This document shows, piece after piece, positions 1 to 15,500 of a stretch of 37,081 bases of DNA. How positions within the stretch are numbered: position 1 is the stretch's first letter; every line of letters starts with the position of its first letter. The stretch covers positions 1 through 37,081 of the forward strand of contig QHYK01000094.1 in assembly GCA_003224085.1 (NCBI GenBank), in the 5' to 3' direction. The DNA is from Acidobacteriota bacterium (lineage in GTDB: Bacteria > Acidobacteriota > Terriglobia > Acidiferrales > UBA7541). The notes under the pieces were generated by a model. The model ran no database searches, was not told where the DNA came from, and saw only the letters and a list, made by a program, of their open reading frames with translations. The position numbers and the translations under genes are program-made.

Positions 1-10
1 CGATTCTGCG

Positions 11-719
11 ATGAGCAATCTCGTCATTCTTTTTGTCCATTTCCTTGCTACCCTGGCCCGCTTGCTCGGACCTAGGGGCGTCCGTTCCATAGTTGTGGAG
101 TCCCTTATCCTTAAGCACCAACTCTTGATAGTGGCTCGCTCACGGCAACGATCGCCGAATTTATGCACGTCGGACCGCATCCTCGCCGGCTTAAATGGCA
201 CTCTTGGTACGTCCCACTCGTCTGCTCCGTTCCGCAATCGTTCTGAAGCCTTCGACACTGCTAGCCCTTCATAAAGCCATGAGCAAGGGAAAGTACCGGA
301 TGCTGTTCTCCCCGGATCGCCGCCGTCAGCCCGGCCCGAAAGGTCCGAGCGCAGAACTCATCCTTGCGGTCGTCGAAATGAAGCAACGAAATCCCAACTG
401 GGGCTGTCCGCGAATCGCTCAACAAATGGCCTTGGCGTTCCATCTCCAAATCGACAAAGACGTGGTTCGCAGGATTCTCGGCCATCACTACCAGCCGGGA
501 CATTCCTCCGGTGATCCTTCCTGGCTGACGTTCCTGGGCCACATGAAAGACAGCCTCTGGAGCATGGATCTGTTCAGGTGCGAGTCGGCAACGCTGCAGA
601 CCCATTGGGTCCTGGTCGTCATGGATCAATATACGCGCCGGATCATTGGGTTCGGCGTCCATGCGGGCGACGTCGATGGTGTCACCCTCTGTCGGATGTT
701 CAACCGTGCCATTCGAGGG
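11..719 (+). pseudogene. DDE integrase/transposase (rve) relic, frameshifted and 3'-truncated
   Basis: The reading starts in one frame at 11 (MSNLVILFVHFLATLARLLG) and passes into another at about 193-195, where one extra A breaks the frame; the second frame continues from ATG 195. Together they give the N-terminal helix-turn-helix part and the start of an integrase core domain of the kind found in stand-alone acidobacterial integrase-core proteins and IS481/IS3-like transposases. Visible landmarks are KPGPKGPS-like (RRQPGPKGPSAEL), NPNWGCPRIAQQ and the first catalytic Asp in SLWSMDLFRCES. Similarity stops at about 719, after FNRAIRG, before the second Asp and the Glu of the DDE triad. The gene cannot make an active transposase. 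The family is recognised by motif memory, not by a search. Confidence 0.8.
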
Positions 720-1076
720 CCCGCGGACGGCCCGATCCTACGCGGCGTGAAGGGTGGGCCGCTTGAACTGAACATGCTGGCGAAGCGAGTCATCCGGCCA
801 GCACTACGCAACCGCGAGAACTACCGCAACGGCGAGTCGAAAAATTGGAAGCCGCTTGAGTGGCAAGGCTTCTATTCGCTCCGTCGAGGCATCGCTACGC
901 AGCTAACCGCGATAACCCGCGATCCGATGGCAGCCAAGGGGCTGTTGCGGCATTCCAGCGTCAACACAACTCTGGCGCACTACATCAAGGACGTGCCAGA
1001 AGTCACGGCGAACGGAATGGCGCAAGTTGAACAGCTATTTGACAAGCTCGATGCTGGCGAGCAGGTAGTCCAGTAA
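720..1076 (+). pseudogene. Tyrosine recombinase (phage integrase) C-terminal half, fused in frame to the DDE relic
   Basis: Residues 176-293 of the open frame that begins at 195 are the C-terminal catalytic part of a tyrosine recombinase. YSLRRGIATQL carries the second-box Arg, LLRHSSVNTTLAHY carries the conserved His, and the Tyr in AHYIKDV is the expected nucleophile. The first catalytic Arg and the whole core-binding domain are absent. The join to the DDE piece lies in a GC-rich stretch at about 717-725, so two unrelated recombinase families share one continuous frame. It sits 95 bp from the tRNA-Ser gene, a usual target of such enzymes. It is probably inactive; an intact relative elsewhere could still act on its old site. 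Confidence 0.8.
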
Positions 1077-1372: not shown

Positions 1373-2506
1373 TCATGAGCGCGCTCCTTGGCTCACCCAA
1401 AGCAGCGGCTGCCGTATGGGGTAGTTGCGAATGATTTCTTCGACAGTCGGATCTGGATCAGCTTGCTCCAGACCGCGAGATATTGCGGCTTCGAAAGCGA
1501 GATTCCCGCGAATAGGAGGCTCGGTTGCCGCACGGGCCATTCATCGAAATACTCGACAGCATGCGCGTGAGGCCACGTTTTCTTATCCGCGATGAAGGGA
1601 AACACAAAAGCCATTGCTTTTTGCAAACCCTCGACCATCGGGAAGGGAATAAGAGAAAAGATTGTCCTCGCGCGTCGACAGGATTTGGCAGACGGTGGAC
1701 ATGACATCAAGGTTGAAAAGGCAATAGCCGTAAGGTTTTGTGCGGCTCAGCTCTCGAGGGAAGCTGCCATTTTCGGCGATCTGTTCGGGCAGAAGGACTT
1801 CCTTAAATCGCTTTCGACAAGATTCGCGTAGCTCATTGTCGGCTGTAAACGTCGCAAACTCTAACCCCTGCATTAGCCAGCAAGTCCCGTGATTGTTCTT
1901 CGCGTCCCGCTCTTCCTGGCCGTTCTTCGACGTCGTCATCCAATCCAGATAATCGACGAACCACTTTCGCAAGCCGCGCATTTCCGCTGCAGAAAGAGCG
2001 CCAGACTTCTCCAGTATCGAGATGGAACGAACAACTTCGACGAGATGAATCGTGTCGATGATCCCCGTTCCCCTTCCCGTAGTCACTCCGTGAATTGCCT
2101 GAGCGTACTGAAGGTTTGCGTGCATTAGCGTGGCGGGGTCAAGAAACCAGGCTCGTAAGTGTTTCGCAGCATGCGCCTCGCAGCGGAGCTCGCGCGTAAG
2201 CAGCCACGCTGCGGTCAACGCGGGGACCTGCAAACTCAATTGAATAAGGGCATGACGGTGCGCCGTGAAATTGTCGGGATTGGACATGCCGTCACGGCGG
2301 ATATACGGACCGGAAGGATTTTGGGGATCGGGCCACCAGTAGTCCCCTTCGGAAAAATAATCGTGCTGCCCGCCCGCGCTCCGCGGACTCGAGAACGCGG
2401 TGATTGTTACCGGCAATTCCTGGACGTATCGGTCCGCCGCGCTGAGGATCGTCGATGGCATGGCCCTGCTGCGCGACGCGAGCGAGCTCTTTCCGGAATC
2501 GAGCAA
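1373..2506 (-). pseudogene. Alginate lyase family protein (PF05426-like), two frameshifts
   Basis: The main frame (2506 down to about 1625) carries the family landmarks in order: SEGDYWWPDPQNPSGPYIRR, DNFTAHRHAL, GRGTGIIDTIHLVEV, AKNNHGTCW and LSRTKPYGYCLFNLD. The Asn-His of KNNHGT and the Tyr of TKPYGY are in the region expected for catalysis. Near 1625 the frame is lost. The C-terminus continues in a second frame (LQKAMAFVFPFIADKKTWPHA, YFDEWPVRQPSLLFAG) and, after about 1480, in a third (DPDPTVEEIIRNYPIRQPLLW), ending at a TGA at 1373-1375. The N-terminus has no clear signal peptide, and its first 30 or so residues abut the relic of the opposite-strand receptor gene, so the 5' end is probably lost as well. 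The ancestral enzyme would have been an exported polysaccharide lyase. Confidence 0.85.
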
Positions 2507-9700: not shown

Positions 9701-11893
9701 GACAATGCCGGCGGCAGTCCGCAGATGCTTCCCCTCAGCGGAAACGGCACGGCTCCCGCCGTGGGATTGGCTCCCACGAGTCTAGACTTTGGTAACCAGT
9801 TGCTGGCGACCACCAGCACAGCGATGACGGTAACGCTGACAAACACCGGCACGGCCGCTTTGACGATCAACTCGTTTGCGGCTTCCGGCGATTTTGCCGC
9901 AACGAGTACCGGTGCAAGTGCCTGCCCTACGAGCCCGGCGACTTTGGCCGCCGGTGGAAATTGCACCATCAACGTGACCTTTACGCCGACGGCCTCGGGT
10001 GCGCGGACGGGAACGCTGTCGCTTGGCGACAATGCCAGCGGCAGTCCGCAGATGCTTCCCCTCAGCGGAAACGGCACGGGCCCCGGCGTGGGCTTGGTTC
10101 CAACCAGCCTAGACTTTGGTAACCAGTTGCTCGCGACCACCAGCGCACCGATGACGGTAACGCTGACAAACACCGGCGCGGCCCCTTTGACGATCAACTC
10201 GTTTGCGGCTTCCGGCGATTTTGCCGCAACGAGTACTGGTGCAAATGCCTGCCCCATGAGCCCGGCGACTTTGGCCGCCGGCGCCAATTGCACCATCGAC
10301 GTGACCTTTACGCCGACGGCCTCGGGTGCACGGACGGGAACGCTGTCGCTTGCCGACAATGCCGGCGGCAGTCCGCAGATGCTTCCCCTCAGCGGAAACG
10401 GCACGGCTCCCGCCGTGGGATTGGCTCCCACGAGTCTAGGCTTTGGTAATCAGCCGCTGACGACCACCAGCACACCGATGACAGTAACGCTGACAAACAC
10501 CGGCACGGCCGCTTTGACGATCAACTCGTTTGCGGCTTCCGGCGATTTTGCCGCAACGAGTACCGGTGCAAGTGCCTGCCCCACGAGCCCGACGACTTTG
10601 GCCGCCGGTGGAAATTGCACCATCAACGTGACCTTTACGCCGACGGCCTTGGGTGCGCGGACGGGAACGCTGTCGCTTGGCGACAATGCCGCCGGCAGTC
10701 CGCAGACGGTTGCGCTCAGCGGAAACGGCACGGGTCCCGGCGTAGGATTGACTCCAACGAGTCTGGACTTTGGTAACCAGCTGCTGACGACCACCAGCGC
10801 GCCGATGACGGTAACGCTGACAAACACCGGCACGGCCGCTTTGACGATCAACTCGTTTGCGGCATCCGGTGATTTTGCCGCAACGAGTACCGGTGCAAAT
10901 GCCTGCCCCATGAGCCCGGCGACTTTGGCCGCCGGTGGAAATTGCACCATCAACGTGACCTTTACGCCGACGGCCTTGGGTGCTCGGACGGGAACGCTAT
11001 TACTTGCCGACAATGCCGCCGGCAGTCCGCAGACGGTTGCGCTCAGCGGAAACGGCACGGCTCCCGTTGTGGGATTGGCTCCCACGAGTCTAGGCTTTGG
11101 TAATCAGCCGCTGACGACCACCAGCACACCGATGACAGTAACGCTGACAAACACCGGCACGGCCGCTTTGACGATCAACTCGTTTGCGGCTTCCGGCGAT
11201 TTTGCCGCAACGAGCACCGGTGCAAGTGCCTGCCCTACGAGCCCGGCGACTTTGGCCGCCGGTGCAAATTGCACCATCAACGTGACCTTTACGCCGGCGG
11301 CCTTGGGTGCGCGGACGGGAACGCTGTCGGTTGCCGACAATTCTGGCGTCGGTCCGCAGACGGTTCCGCTCAGCGGAAACGGCACGGCGGCGCCTGACTT
11401 TGGATTGACAGGCCCAGCCGGAACCCAGAACGTGAAACCCGGAAATACCCTCACGTTTACAGTCACCCTGACGCCGATCGGAGGATTCAAGTCGCCTGTC
11501 GGCCTCGCTTGCACGGGAGCGCTCATGGGCACCACTTGCACGGTATCGCCAGCTTCGGTCACTGCTACGGATGGAGTAACTCCCCAGCAGGCGCAAGTGT
11601 CCATGACGACCAACGCGTTCGTGATTCCACCGACGCGTTTGCCGGTACCCGCGCCGCCTGCCTGGCGATGGATTCCGCTGTTCCTCGTGCTGCTGCTGTT
11701 GGCGCTTGTGCCGAAAATGCGGCCGTTACGAGTGCGGCTGGGAATGGCCGCTGCGGTGCTCCTGTTGGCGTTCTTAGCGGGATGCGCCGGTTCACCGGGA
11801 GCTCCAAAGGGACCGGTACCGGTCGCGCTGACCATCACAGGCACCTCGGGCACCTCGGCTCATTCCGTGCAAGTGAATGTCACGGTGCAGTAG
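6710..11893 (+). CDS. Giant exported SBBP-repeat / choice-of-anchor D protein with C-terminal two-helix GCAG module
   Basis: The 1727-residue product starts at ATG 6710, which has GGAGG at 6696-6700. Residues 1-35 form a signal peptide (MKKLNARG, then a hydrophobic run). A DUF7948-like N-terminal domain follows (PLSFEENQGQTAEEVRYLAH; GVYPGIDLVFYGNQGKLEYD; KPLVLDPVLNYSTYLGG). From about residue 290 to 790 there are SBBP beta-propeller repeats (YSTYLGG..D.GYAIAVD..GNAYV.G.T.STDFP). One divergent choice-of-anchor D (ASH-like) domain spans about 797-908, then six near-identical 109-residue copies span 909-1562, then one Ig-like domain. The end is WIPLFLVLLLLALVP, a basic loop, a second helix, LAGCAGS at Cys1692 and a short beta tail. 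It is probably a cell-surface adhesion or scaffold protein; no enzyme domain is seen. It faces the S53 protease gene tail to tail. Confidence 0.9.
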   Translation: MKKLNARGSVANFVGAAALFLGVLFLLVLGGAQDALLATSGGGHIAAAKAAAAKEAPRWREAYGKLPLSFEENQGQTAEEVRYLAHGTGYELFLTPHEALLALRSRRHHDLSPLHRTASLRAIRKARKAGQLTALRIQFEGANLHPAVNGMGRLPARTNYFLGNDPKKWHTDVPSYGRVHYEGVYPGIDLVFYGNQGKLEYDFLVAPGADPEVIQLKIAGARKMRLNSSGNVVLSAAAGEVELQKPLVYQMIDGKRRLIEGRYVVAADHRVRFSVAHYDRSKPLVLDPVLNYSTYLGGSSEDTGYAIAVDGAGNAFVAGQTLSTDFPGAAAPPAVSNCAATNNCGASFVAELDPTGTKLLYATYLAGSTTGSGESAFGIAVDSSGKVYVTGVTFATDFPTTSANALNAGPLASNANGTAYLTKLDPTVSGPSCLIYSTYIAGTGGDHANSVAADDVGNAYVVGLTYSTDFPTMNPFQSALSNTNGNAFLTRIDTTQSQDASLIYSTYLGGNGANAVTYLGYGDEGWGVAADSSGNAYVVGATSSTDSSFITSATAYQSTPPATNIEASAFVSRMDTTQVGPASLIYSTYLAGSTADQGLAIALGPNNVAYVTGTTSSADYPATTGAFDTTGSGSGKAFITLVDTTQSGLSSVPYSTYLGGTGGDLGYAIKVDASGNAYVAGTTFSTDFAGAGTLNTLGAFQPTLLNPAGEAFIAKLNPAGGGQGDLLYATYFGGSTGMSADYGYGIAIDSASPPNAYITGETSSTDLPVSATAFQPTLNVTGGPGFVDAYVAKLALIPTLAIVPASPDFGVQPVGATSVPQTVTVTNNNNVTVNFGSIAFTGANSADFAKVTDTCTPSVAAGAQCSVSVTFTPSVAATEAVTLVITGDDVNSPQNMSLGGTGSNSAPGVGLAPTSLAFGNQLLTTTSTAMTVTLTNTGAADLTINSFAASGDFAATSTGASACPTSPATLAAGGNCTINVTFTPTALGARTGTLSLGDNAGGSPQMLPLSGNGTAPAVGLAPTSLDFGNQLLATTSTAMTVTLTNTGTAALTINSFAASGDFAATSTGASACPTSPATLAAGGNCTINVTFTPTASGARTGTLSLGDNASGSPQMLPLSGNGTGPGVGLVPTSLDFGNQLLATTSAPMTVTLTNTGAAPLTINSFAASGDFAATSTGANACPMSPATLAAGANCTIDVTFTPTASGARTGTLSLADNAGGSPQMLPLSGNGTAPAVGLAPTSLGFGNQPLTTTSTPMTVTLTNTGTAALTINSFAASGDFAATSTGASACPTSPTTLAAGGNCTINVTFTPTALGARTGTLSLGDNAAGSPQTVALSGNGTGPGVGLTPTSLDFGNQLLTTTSAPMTVTLTNTGTAALTINSFAASGDFAATSTGANACPMSPATLAAGGNCTINVTFTPTALGARTGTLLLADNAAGSPQTVALSGNGTAPVVGLAPTSLGFGNQPLTTTSTPMTVTLTNTGTAALTINSFAASGDFAATSTGASACPTSPATLAAGANCTINVTFTPAALGARTGTLSVADNSGVGPQTVPLSGNGTAAPDFGLTGPAGTQNVKPGNTLTFTVTLTPIGGFKSPVGLACTGALMGTTCTVSPASVTATDGVTPQQAQVSMTTNAFVIPPTRLPVPAPPAWRWIPLFLVLLLLALVPKMRPLRVRLGMAAAVLLLAFLAGCAGSPGAPKGPVPVALTITGTSGTSAHSVQVNVTVQ
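9434..11395 (+). repeat. Six tandem 327-bp in-frame repeats (choice-of-anchor D domains)
   Basis: Units begin at 9434, 9761, 10088, 10415, 10742 and 11069, with a period of exactly 327 bp (109 codons) and no length change. Each unit encodes VGLxPTSLxFGNQ, TMTVTLTNTG-like, TINSFAASGDFAATSTGA, CTINVTFTP and LSGNGT segments. DNA identity between units is very high, with long identical runs in the middle of the unit, while the start (GLAPTSLxFGNQ) and end (DNAxGSPQxxxLSGNGT) vary more. A more diverged unit precedes them (about 9100-9433). This points to recent amplification or gene conversion. Confidence 0.95.
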
Positions 11894-12532
11894 AAACTGC
11901 GCCTGAAACAGGGTGCCGTGCGTCGCCCACAGGGCGGGGCGATGAACTTACCGCTCCAGAAAACGAAGGAATGCGTGTGGGTGCGTCCAGAGGCTGTTGC
12001 TCAAATCGAATTTCCGGTGTGGACAGCAAGAGTTCGGGTCAGGCATGCAGAATTTGTACGGCTGCAAGAGGACAGAGACCAGAGACCCGCGACTCGTCAC
12101 GAAGGAACGCGTTTGCCCGGGCAACGTAATTTTTCAGCTTGCTCGCTTACTAGGACAATAATGCGGCAACGTTCGAGGTTCATTATTGAAACGCGTTGCC
12201 GAATTCCTGCAATCCCGTATTCAAGACTTCAAGACCGCCGGTTTCAATCGCTCACGACGAAAATCGGCCTGCGTCATTACAAGTTAATGTTGCTGCGCAA
12301 GTGCAAGTACATGATGCATTGATTGGCCTAATCAAATGTGGATTCAATCAGTTACAATGCGATTTCACGATTTCAATGTGGATTTGTGAATTCCCGTGCA
12401 TAACATGCATGACAACCATTCTCTCGCCCCTTCGTTACTGTTTGCTGCCGCAACCAAGCCGCAGTGGAAACCACGAACCTCGAATTGAGGCATCGAGCGC
12501 CGTTCCCAGTCGCCGGTGGAGTTGTCGAATCA
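11894..12532. other. Intergenic region between the two convergent giant genes
   Basis: This 639-bp stretch separates the 3' ends of two convergent genes. I see no supported gene. It holds the tRNA-Ser fragment at 12228-12255 and an AT-richer part at about 12280-12430. I see no clear rho-independent terminator for either gene. Confidence 0.5.
12228..12255 (-). repeat. Partial tRNA-Ser copy (D-arm to anticodon loop), possible attachment scar
   Basis: These 28 bases match 1224-1251 of the tRNA-Ser gene at 27 of 28 positions and in the same orientation; the single difference is T at 12249 against C. The match covers the 3' side of the D-arm through the anticodon stem and loop. Flanking bases on both sides do not continue the tRNA. 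It cannot form a tRNA. Tyrosine recombinases often use anticodon-arm sequences as crossover sites, and a recombinase relic adjoins the full tRNA, so an att remnant is plausible. Confidence 0.7.
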
Positions 12533-15500
12533 CTAATCGATGGTGAGCGTCAGAGAGGTTGATGCTGTAATAGACGGCGTGGTGCTATCGGTTCCGACAA
12601 TGGTTATAGCATAGTTTCCCTTCGCAGCCGTAGGAGAGCTTGGCGGCGGCGTGGACGCCACGCCTGCGCAACCCGAAGCCGCCAAACCAATCGCGGCAAG
12701 AACGCACAGAGTTGCGAGAGTGGCAAGCCTGCGGCAACGACGACCCATCAAACCGACGAAAAGCAGCCCAACCATAGCCATGCCGGCCTGGTTTGCCTGG
12801 AGCGCCAAAAACGGAGTCAGGTCCTTCTCGTTAGTATGCGGAGCGCCGTCAGGGATGCTGCGCGGGCTAACTCCTTTTCCAACGAGCGCGGGAGTCGGAC
12901 AAGCCGAGGCTACCGTGTTGACGGTCAAGGTGGTTGCAACCGCAGTTGTTCCGGAGATCGTTGTGTTGGGAATGATGAAGCAGCCGTTCGTCAGAGCAGG
13001 ACTGCTGGAGACGGTCCAAGCTATAGTGCCCGTGTAGCCGTTCTGGGGAGTGATGGTAACTGTCGAGACCCCCGGATTCCCTGCCATGACCGTCACATTG
13101 CCGGCAGCCAGATTGAAGGATTTGGCAAACACAGTCAGGGTAAGGGACCCGCTGGAAGGCGCATAGTTGGAATCGCCGGAGTAGGTGGCGGCGATGGTGT
13201 GGGGGCCTGCGACTGTCGAAGAGAAGGTGTACGTGGCAGATCCATTCGTCAGTGTAAGAGATGGAGTTTGCGTCGTTCCATCAACTGCGATAGTCAGCGT
13301 CCCGGTCGGTGTAGTTGTGCTCGAGGTTGATGCCGAAGCGACTGTAATGCTGATGGCATCGCTCGCTCCGACGGCGGGCGTGCTGGTAGCCGCGGAAAGT
13401 GTTGTCTTCGAGGGCACCGGCGGGGGCTGGACCACGTTGATAGAAATGGTGCCCGGAGTTGCGGAGGTAGCTCCGTTACTCTCCGCCACATTGAATGTGA
13501 AGCTGTCCGATCCCACATAACCTGTCGTTGGAGTGTACGTCGTGTTGGGAGGAGTGCCGCTCAATGCGCCGTGCGCAGGATTAGTCGCGATGGCAAAGGT
13601 CAGGGTGTCACCCGAAGTGCCTGGAGTCCCGGTCAGGGTGATAGCCACGGCTGTGTTCTTGTTGGTGCTCACGCTTTGGTTGTTGGCGACTGGAGGCGGG
13701 GGGCCGGAGGCGACGGTGATACTAACCGTGGCAGGGCTGGACGCAACGCCGTTCTCCGTGGCGTCAAAAGTGAAACTGTCCGGGCCGACGTAACCAGTGG
13801 CGGGAGTATAGGTCACGTTCGGCGCCGTTCCGCTGAGCGTGCCGTGGGCGGGATTGGCGATGATGGCGTAGGTCAGCGTGTCGCCGGGAGTTCCAGGCGT
13901 GGCAGTCAAGGTAATGGCTTTGGGAGTGTTCGCCGTCGTAGTCACGGTCTGGGCCATCGCCACCGGCGGAGAAGGCACCGTCACTGTTAGCGAGCCAGTA
14001 GAAGAAGCATAGGTCGAATCACCGGAGTAAGTTGCCGCAATGACATGAGCGCCGGGAGTCATGGAAGAGAAGGTGTAGGTCGCCGAACCATTCACCAGCG
14101 CAAGAGAGGAGGTCTGCAACGTTCCATCGACAGTGACAGTCAGTGTGCCCGTCGGCGTGGCGGTGCTTGAGGTCGATCCTGAAGCCACCCTAATCGTGAT
14201 GGCGTCGTTCGCACCGGGAGCGGGCGTCATGGTTGCTGCCGAAAGTGTCGTCTTCGAAGGTACCAACGACGAAGAAGATCCCGGCCAAGCCGTCATCAAG
14301 CTGAAAAAGTCCACCGAACCCAAGCCTGACGCCTCGTCATAGCCGGTCGTGGCGGGATACTGCGACGCGCCAGCCGTCGAGCAGATGCTTGTCCCCGCGG
14401 TGCATTGATTGCCGCCACTGGTGATGTCGTGGAATGCAGAGGCGTAGGTGGAGGAGTTTGCCGCAAGAGTGTAGAGAGTGGAGTTGATGACGCCCTGTCC
14501 GGTCGAGTTCAGCTTGTCATTGATAATCGCCAACATTCCGGCAAAAACCGGCGCGGCAAAACTCGTACCTCCGGCGACAGTCAGATTTACATTGGTGCTA
14601 TCTCGAAACCCGTTCGTGCAACTACCCGTGACCCTGGTCATAGTGTCGCTCGAGCAAAAAAGATACCCTGCGTTGTTGGCAGAGGAGGTCAGCGAAATAT
14701 CCGGCACGAAACGAAATGTTCCTGACGGGATGCCTGGTACGCCGGTCTGCCAACTGGGTCTAGGTGTGAGCGTGCTGACACCTCCGCCGCCCGAACCGAG
14801 CCCTGCGGAGGAATCGTCGTTCCACACCTGCTCGGGAATGTAGGAGAGAGCCGAGCTGACGAGGTCGCTGCCATTGGCCGCCTGCCAATACGTGGTATTC
14901 GCGGAGGTCACGGCAGCCAGTGGAAACTCGGTTCCACCCATGGCCGTTACGTACTGACTGCTCGCGGGAAAGTCCACCGCCAGGGCCTGTTGCTGGGCGG
15001 GGGTAAGGGATGTTTCTCTATAGCAGTCGGTCGAGCCGGTGTCGCCCGCCGCAACGATCACGGACTGGCCCTGACTGGCCGCCTGGGCCAGTATGGAGTT
15101 GAGGCTCGAATATTCCGAAGGTCCAAGCGCGGTCTCGCAAAGGCCGTAGCTTACGCTAATGATCGGCGCAGTCCTGTTGGTCACTGCGAATTGGATGGAG
15201 TCGAACACGTTATTGTTCGCGTTGTTGCCTACATAAACGAAGTAGATTGTCGCGCCATTCGCAATGGTGCTGGTGTATTCCAGGTCCAGATCGGATTCGG
15301 TTTCATCACCGGACCGAATGGTTGCGGTACCTGTGTTGGGAACGAGCACCAGCGTGGGGTCTTTGACGGCGAAACCCGCGGCGGTCTGGAAGTGTTCGAT
15401 GTCCGACAGCACGATCGCCGACTGGCCAACCACCGCAATCGACTGCCCAACACCGTTATAACCGGCCTTATAGGCTGGATTGATGTCGTAGATAGTAGCC

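Follow-up and report, generated by a model that had tools for sequence, protein, structure and literature searches.

The window analysed here is a stretch of 37,081 nucleotides (contig QHYK01000094.1, assembly GCA_003224085.1) from a soil acidobacterium of the class Terriglobia. It holds two convergent genes for large secreted proteins, P0001 and P0002, whose C-termini share one module: a hydrophobic helix, a basic loop, a second helix, a Gly-Cys pair, a linker and a beta-stranded tail. An earlier interpretation made without database searches, which we call the sequence-only reading, had pointed out this order of parts at both C-termini, and the sequences bear it out. P0001 (6605..11893, forward strand) combines a DUF7948 domain with SBBP repeats, choice-of-anchor-D repeats and a last immunoglobulin (Ig)-like domain that bears the module; P0002 (12533..16207, reverse strand) consists of a pro-kumamolisin activation domain, an S53-type protease, Big_3_5 and Big_9 repeats and the module. 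Besides the pro-kumamolisin activation domain and the Big_3_5/Big_9 repeats, the domain scan of P0002 returned a weak Peptidase_S8 match; the S53 label follows the sequence-only reading and general background. As expected of an export signal, P0001 has a clear N-terminal hydrophobic peak (3.2); that of P0002 is weak (1.5). No conserved pairing of the two genes was found: P0001 had no tblastn match (E <= 1e-10) in 24 loci of P0002 relatives, taken with up to 4.5 kb per side.

In P0001, all on the forward strand, the first part of the final Ig-like domain lies before the hairpin at 11396..11611 (AlphaFold2 strands 17-88; Ig profile positions 1-65, 29.3 bits). It is followed by helix 1, RWIPLFLVLLLLALV, at 11660..11710, recognised by hydrophobicity and by AlphaFold2, and by the basic loop PKMRPLRVRL, read from the sequence at 11711..11740. 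Helix 2, GMAAAVLLLAFLAG, ends in a lipobox-like LAG and spans 11726..11782, its AlphaFold2 start falling inside the loop; the conserved Cys codon (11783..11785) corresponds to C146 of our 52-row alignment A1, and the last two strands of the domain, F and G, occupy 11816..11887 (AlphaFold2 strands 157-180; Ig profile 77-97, 19.3 bits; fold alignment). The parts of P0002 run in the same order on the reverse strand: the first Ig-like part at 12908..13108 (Ig profile 6-69, 34.6 bits), helix 1, AGMAMVGLLFVGLMG, at 12743..12787 (hydrophobicity), the basic loop RRCRRLATLA at 12713..12742 (sequence reading), helix 2, TLCVLAAIGLAASG, at 12671..12712 with ASG preceding the cysteine (hydrophobicity), the codon of Cys1180 at 12668..12670 (conserved among module members and P0002 relatives) and strands F and G at 12539..12634 (Ig profile 69-97, 12.1 bits; NF058595 match 1092-1223). 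The cysteine of P0001 is residue 1727 of 1762 in the listed open reading frame, or 1692 if the start is the Met 35 residues downstream, and 35 residues follow it; Cys1180 of P0002, out of 1224 residues, is followed by 44. In both genes the stop codon comes immediately after the tail, placing the module at the C-terminus. The tails do share a motif, as the sequence-only reading had noted, and its correct form is [LI]TI-x-GT rather than LTI-x-GT (ALTITGT in one, AITIVGT in the other).

The module had been thought to belong to no named family, which is not the case: it is NCBIfam NF058595, "invert_tail", described as a lipo-invert putative C-terminal anchoring domain. Both window proteins exceed its curated cut-off of 37 bits, P0002 with 44.1 bits in the protein scan and 54.4 bits in the own-genome search, and P0001 with 49.1 bits for its C-terminus and 50.3 bits in the own-genome search; in the scan of full-length P0001, NF058595 was not among the matches at E <= 1. 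All 52 rows of A1 match the family at E <= 10 (best E 1.1e-29). The own genome gave 40 matches at E <= 10, seven of them above the cut-off, including one tail fragment (C20) and one tail part only of a split member (C5). NF058595 is C-terminal and has the same helix, loop, helix, cysteine and tail as the window proteins, yet its name calls the role putative and makes no mention of a split Ig domain. Our literature searches found no paper on the module, none using the name NF058595 and no described mechanism for it. The module is thus a catalogued family with an unexplained role, and its split-Ig build hints at a way of tethering exported proteins to the cell envelope.

To describe the family we gathered 79 match regions, mostly from the top of the own-genome and phylum lists and leaving out near-duplicates in one genome (G163). 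Three were dropped, two as uninterrupted Ig ends (L122, L124) and one as a fragment (L123), and the remaining 76 together with the window pair form a set of 78 members. Every member has the cysteine at the end of helix 2, preceded by a small residue (G, A or S) at position -1, and C146 is the sole invariant column of A1. The stretch from C-36 to C-17 carries a net charge of at least +3 in 78/78 (mean +4.3), and the part after the cysteine is near neutral (mean +0.2, range -3 to +3) and begins with a Gly/Ser-rich tether. Conservation of the cysteine and of the basic loop had been named in advance as a check, and both held. The cysteine is followed by 34-55 residues in 76 members and by 132 or 136 in two. 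At least two hydrophobic segments occur in the C-terminal 240 residues of 77/78, L103 showing one at the single hydrophobicity cut-off used.

The profile used to pick these members includes the cysteine itself, so a second set weighs more. It comprises 24 loci found by similarity to the whole of P0002, with one of the six search words falling in helix 1. Twenty-three were read, and 22 have the module with its cysteine; L163 was set aside as a short partial match, L158 was counted by eye, L149 is truncated at a contig end, and the sequence of L153 stops just after the cysteine.

The observation that best accounts for the tail is that the module interrupts the last Ig-like domain just before its last two strands, F and G, and computation supports this well. 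L139, L122 and L124 of the own genome supplied six Ig domains without an interruption, from which we built an Ig profile of 97 positions, with the 99th percentile of 1560 shuffles as the significance threshold. The part before the hairpin exceeds it in 73 of the 78 members, the part after the cysteine in 56 and both in 52. Matches of the first part end at profile positions 57-91 (median 71), those of the tail start at 28-77 (median 69), and 54 of the 56 tail matches finish within three residues of the C-terminus. In P0001 both parts pass the threshold, and in P0002 the part before the hairpin does. The sequence-only reading had missed the nature of the tail. We reject a free, unrelated beta tail, as the Ig profile resumes about where the first half stops, and assign the tail to strands F and G, which close the Ig-like domain begun before helix 1. 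The two hosts had been called unrelated; they are otherwise different proteins, but each has at its end an Ig-like domain into which the module is inserted.

Structure prediction agrees with this assignment. An AlphaFold2 model of the P0001 end (11348-11890, made with A1; mean predicted local distance difference test, pLDDT, 85.6) has strands within residues 17-88, helices at 105-120 and 127-144, and strands at 157-167 and 170-180. VIA-align superposed 97 of its residues (16..181) on a continuous Ig domain of 99 residues in a sialidase (404-502), with Z 12.7 and a root-mean-square deviation (rmsd) of 2.0. Two own-genome variants, L119 and L121, place 136 and 132 residues after the cysteine, with an extra Ig-like domain there. 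In L121 this domain matches Big_3_5 positions 2-85 of 88, and by sequence the build is the same as that of L119, whose extra domain has no Pfam match and is visible in its predicted model. The pLDDT of that model is 94-97 in the blocks that span residues 1-70 and 241-269, against 53-74 in the extra domain. The Foldseek list was uninformative alone, so VIA-align was used: 99 residues (1..269) fit Vpr 597-700 with Z 12.7 and an rmsd of 1.9, and strands F and G are predicted to complete the first domain across both the hairpin and the extra domain. In the predicted models of P0001 and L119 the parts before and after the hairpin thus form one Ig fold. That the gene of an exported protein was simply fused to a lipoprotein gene lying downstream is unlikely, because the strands after the cysteine belong to the domain before the hairpin, in L119 as well. 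Pfam over A1 gave no family for the split domain, only scattered weak matches, and a sequence search of solved chains likewise gave weak matches only (best E 0.0057): Ig parts match at profile positions 15-89, and solute-binding proteins match with their starts, within 109-163.

A second Ig family is likely split at the same place, although this case is less firmly supported than the first. In L120, also from the own genome, a small Big_3 profile matches with its end (72-96, 15.2 bits) at the C-terminus, and the first Big_3 part is barely recognised (-1.3 bits in the full protein, 3.4 bits in the C-terminal piece); its hairpin seems to sit inside a Big_3-type domain.

Helix 2 and the cysteine resemble lipoprotein signals. 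Between the last charged residue or His and the cysteine, the median distance is 18 in the 78 members, against 16 in ten N-terminal lipoprotein signals of the own genome, and the weak matches to A1 include models of N-terminal lipoproteins. Of the 30 loci of the own-genome search, 14 with weaker matches to NF058595 were inspected: 12 have a cysteine behind a hydrophobic stretch, most at or near the start of the protein, and the other two are uninterrupted Ig strands. Because the weaker matches are of these two kinds, the NF058595 profile looks like a join of a lipoprotein signal and Ig strands. The module has the basic stretch, hydrophobic helix, small-Cys-small motif and Gly/Ser tether of a type II lipoprotein signal, but it is not N-terminal: a whole exported protein and another helix precede it. 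By this computed likeness, the earlier suggestion of a lipoprotein-type signal near the C-terminus stands. The hairpin may instead be a plain pair of inner-membrane helices without a lipid, the cysteine being kept for another reason such as a disulfide. The two hydrophobic segments with a basic loop between them fit this view, but the cysteine is the sole invariant column while the helices vary freely, and its surroundings match the N-terminal lipoprotein signals of the own genome; we consider a plain hairpin unlikely.

Lipoprotein signals are commonly understood through positive-inside topology, lipidation by Lgt and cutting by LspA. On this basis, the module would be a lipoprotein signal in an internal position, placed in the loop that leads into the last two strands of the final Ig-like domain. 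Sec would export the protein body, helix 1 would halt in the inner membrane, the Arg/Lys loop would remain cytoplasmic, and helix 2 would lead outward again, with the small-Cys-small motif at the outer face as in a type II signal peptide. Lgt would add a diacylglyceryl group to the cysteine, and LspA would probably cut before it. The lipid-bearing peptide would consist of the cysteine, the Gly/Ser tether and strands F and G; it would remain part of the body's beta sandwich, with the Ig fold as the clamp between protein and lipid anchor. We give even chances to this proposal of an internal signal that is lipidated at the cysteine and probably cut, with strands F and G as the link that clamps body and lipid together. 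The split Ig build, the conserved cysteine, the charge pattern and the predicted fold on which it draws are computed results. A cut chain whose lipid peptide holds two Ig strands would explain why these strands are kept even in the variants, and the split-Ig reading explains the retention of the tail in NF058595 proteins.

Several points weigh against the proposal. The tail of P0002, at 12.1 bits, falls between the 95th (10.7) and 99th (15.3) shuffle percentiles. The pairing of the tail strands is deduced from the number of aligned residues and the model confidence, the strand ranges giving end residues and no contacts. The lipobox is loosely kept, as the strict pattern [LVI][ASTVI][GAS]C fits 32/78 members and a loose one 61/78. 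Topology, lipidation, cutting, clamp and final membrane are all steps that we infer. A cut at the cysteine would leave both helices on the body and so keep it in the inner membrane, and no motif for a second cut was found among the 78 members. Finally, no copy of LspA or Lgt tracks the module in the 36 genomes sampled, and no other enzyme was searched.

The enzyme counts are as follows. The own genome has one LspA match and one Lgt match. A single LspA match was found in 35 of the 36 genomes, with or without the module, and none in the module-bearing G304. Lgt has 2-4 matches in six of the seven sampled genomes of family f2 (G007, G036, G084, G094, G139, G171). Two matches each were found in one f72 genome, out of five, and in three that lack the module; all others, the own genome among them, have one. 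There is therefore no clear link between the module and a dedicated copy of LspA or Lgt, and none is implied, since neither enzyme tracks it. A specific membrane enzyme, for whose co-occurrence the sequence-only reading had proposed a test, was not found, the search covering only LspA and Lgt; the own genome has one ordinary LspA and one Lgt match.

These enzymes also bear on whether the chain is cut. Lgt might modify the cysteine and leave the chain whole, giving an anchor of two helices and a lipid in the inner membrane; the Ig domain would then merely tolerate an insertion whose ends lie close together. The same cysteine and split-fold evidence serves this view, and a folded domain around the insertion requires no cut. 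Yet LspA is present in the own genome, and a lipidated cysteine behind such a helix is an LspA substrate. We regard an uncut lipidated chain as somewhat doubtful.

We advance more tentatively, as a possibility that falls short of even, a two-chain anchor made from one gene, in which the LspA cut and possibly a second cut removing the hairpin would leave the body held to the envelope only through the two lipid-bearing strands that complete its last Ig domain. A possible cleavage motif before helix 1, LRxP-like, was noticed by eye; [LVIAMS][RKH].P occurs in 15/78 members, but 300 shuffles gave a mean of 7.8 and reached 15 at most, so the motif is not convincing. In chaperone-usher pili, donor-strand complementation completes an Ig fold with a strand from a separate chain. 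The Ig fold of the module would likewise be completed from a second chain, provided that the Cys site is cut, but its strands would come from the same gene product and carry a lipid; we claim no homology.

We then considered how widely the module occurs. A profile search of the phylum, named beforehand as a test, gave many matches: 62 of 199 genomes match NF058595 at E <= 1e-4 and 23 exceed the cut-off. The matching genomes of the own class number 20 (the own genome and 19 others); given 23 over the cut-off, three genomes outside the class must lie just above it, presumably those with best E values of 4.4e-9 to 9.3e-9. In the class search, 86/151 genomes exceed the cut-off, with 1-18 matches each. 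The carriers belong to families f1, f2 and f72, plus one f74 genome with 9% contamination; among those listed, the class genomes without a match belong to families f3, f69-f71 and f73-f76, and there are 45 further genomes beyond these. None of 14 control genomes exceeds the cut-off; every one of them gives weak matches at E <= 10, and one does so at E <= 1e-4. Named carriers of the module on a P0002-type protein include Terriglobus albidus, Bryocella elongata and a Granulicella sp., the last genus belonging to Terriglobia. One contig filed under a Rhodanobacteraceae metagenome-assembled genome (L154) bears an acidobacterial-type P0002 relative with the module and is probably misbinned.

The hosts are diverse. 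Apart from the window pair, the own genome has the module on, among others, two subtilases (L068, L119), a phosphoesterase carrying Ig-like repeats (L085), a protein that matches sortilin/BNR (L065) and one built of Big_3_5 repeats (L121). An N-terminal hydrophobic peak of at least 1.9, as expected of export signals, is present in 68/78 members; of the nine below this value besides P0002, some may lack the true start in the stretch fetched. The module thus sits on otherwise different exported proteins and is common in part of the Acidobacteriota, as had been supposed.

Many different clients per genome and a restricted lineage also suit a dedicated sorting system of the MYXO-CTERM/myxosortase kind, in which a lineage-specific intramembrane protease would recognise the hairpin or the cysteine and send the protein to the surface. 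The MYXO-CTERM/MrtX study describes a C-terminal tag on varied exported proteins, with an invariant cysteine and an Arg-rich cytoplasmic part, for which Lgt-like lipidation and intramembrane cutting are proposed (PMC11980579). The order of parts differs: MYXO-CTERM runs from the cysteine through a helix to an Arg-rich end (PMC11980579), whereas the module runs from a helix through an Arg-rich loop and a second helix to the cysteine, followed by two beta strands (34-55 residues after the cysteine in 76/78). The module lacks the MYXO-CTERM combination of a Cys motif, one helix and a short Arg-rich C-terminus, and the MYXO-CTERM model TIGR03901 matches only 2 of the 52 aligned members, weakly (best E 0.027). 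A sorting system of this type is, in our view, very unlikely.

With such a two-chain anchor, an Ig-ending protein could become a lipoprotein without any change to its N-terminus. An Ig domain split by a lipoprotein signal would give the Acidobacteriota a further means of holding secreted proteases and other proteins at their surface. Lipoprotein prediction that considers only the N-terminus misses such proteins if an internal signal that follows another helix is accepted by Lgt and LspA.

Some copies depart from the usual build. In L146, L147, L155 and L157, a stretch after the cysteine, F[ST][LV]S[VI]SPS.VT[VL]SAG, resembles the first strands of the same Ig type and precedes strands F and G. 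L164 (about 1934-2173, forward strand) is a stop-to-stop frame of 111 residues in which a lipoprotein-like signal leads directly into a Gly/Ser linker and the F/G tail; no first Ig part or helix 1 was seen in the upstream frames, and it may be a free-standing tail lipoprotein or a gene remnant. L167 (match about 525-851, reverse strand) is a 130-residue stop-to-stop frame with hairpin, cysteine and tail, in which the first Ig part was not seen in the frames inspected. In the own genome, L165 (2246-2428, reverse strand) has the tail, helix 2 and cysteine, with the upstream hydrophobic part in another frame, and is probably a broken copy or a sequencing error. Lastly, L014 (1501-1653, reverse strand), also from the own genome, has a lipoprotein-like cysteine near the start of its frame; a Gly/Ser linker comes next and then a stretch of the same Ig-like type, making L014 an N-terminal counterpart of the module.

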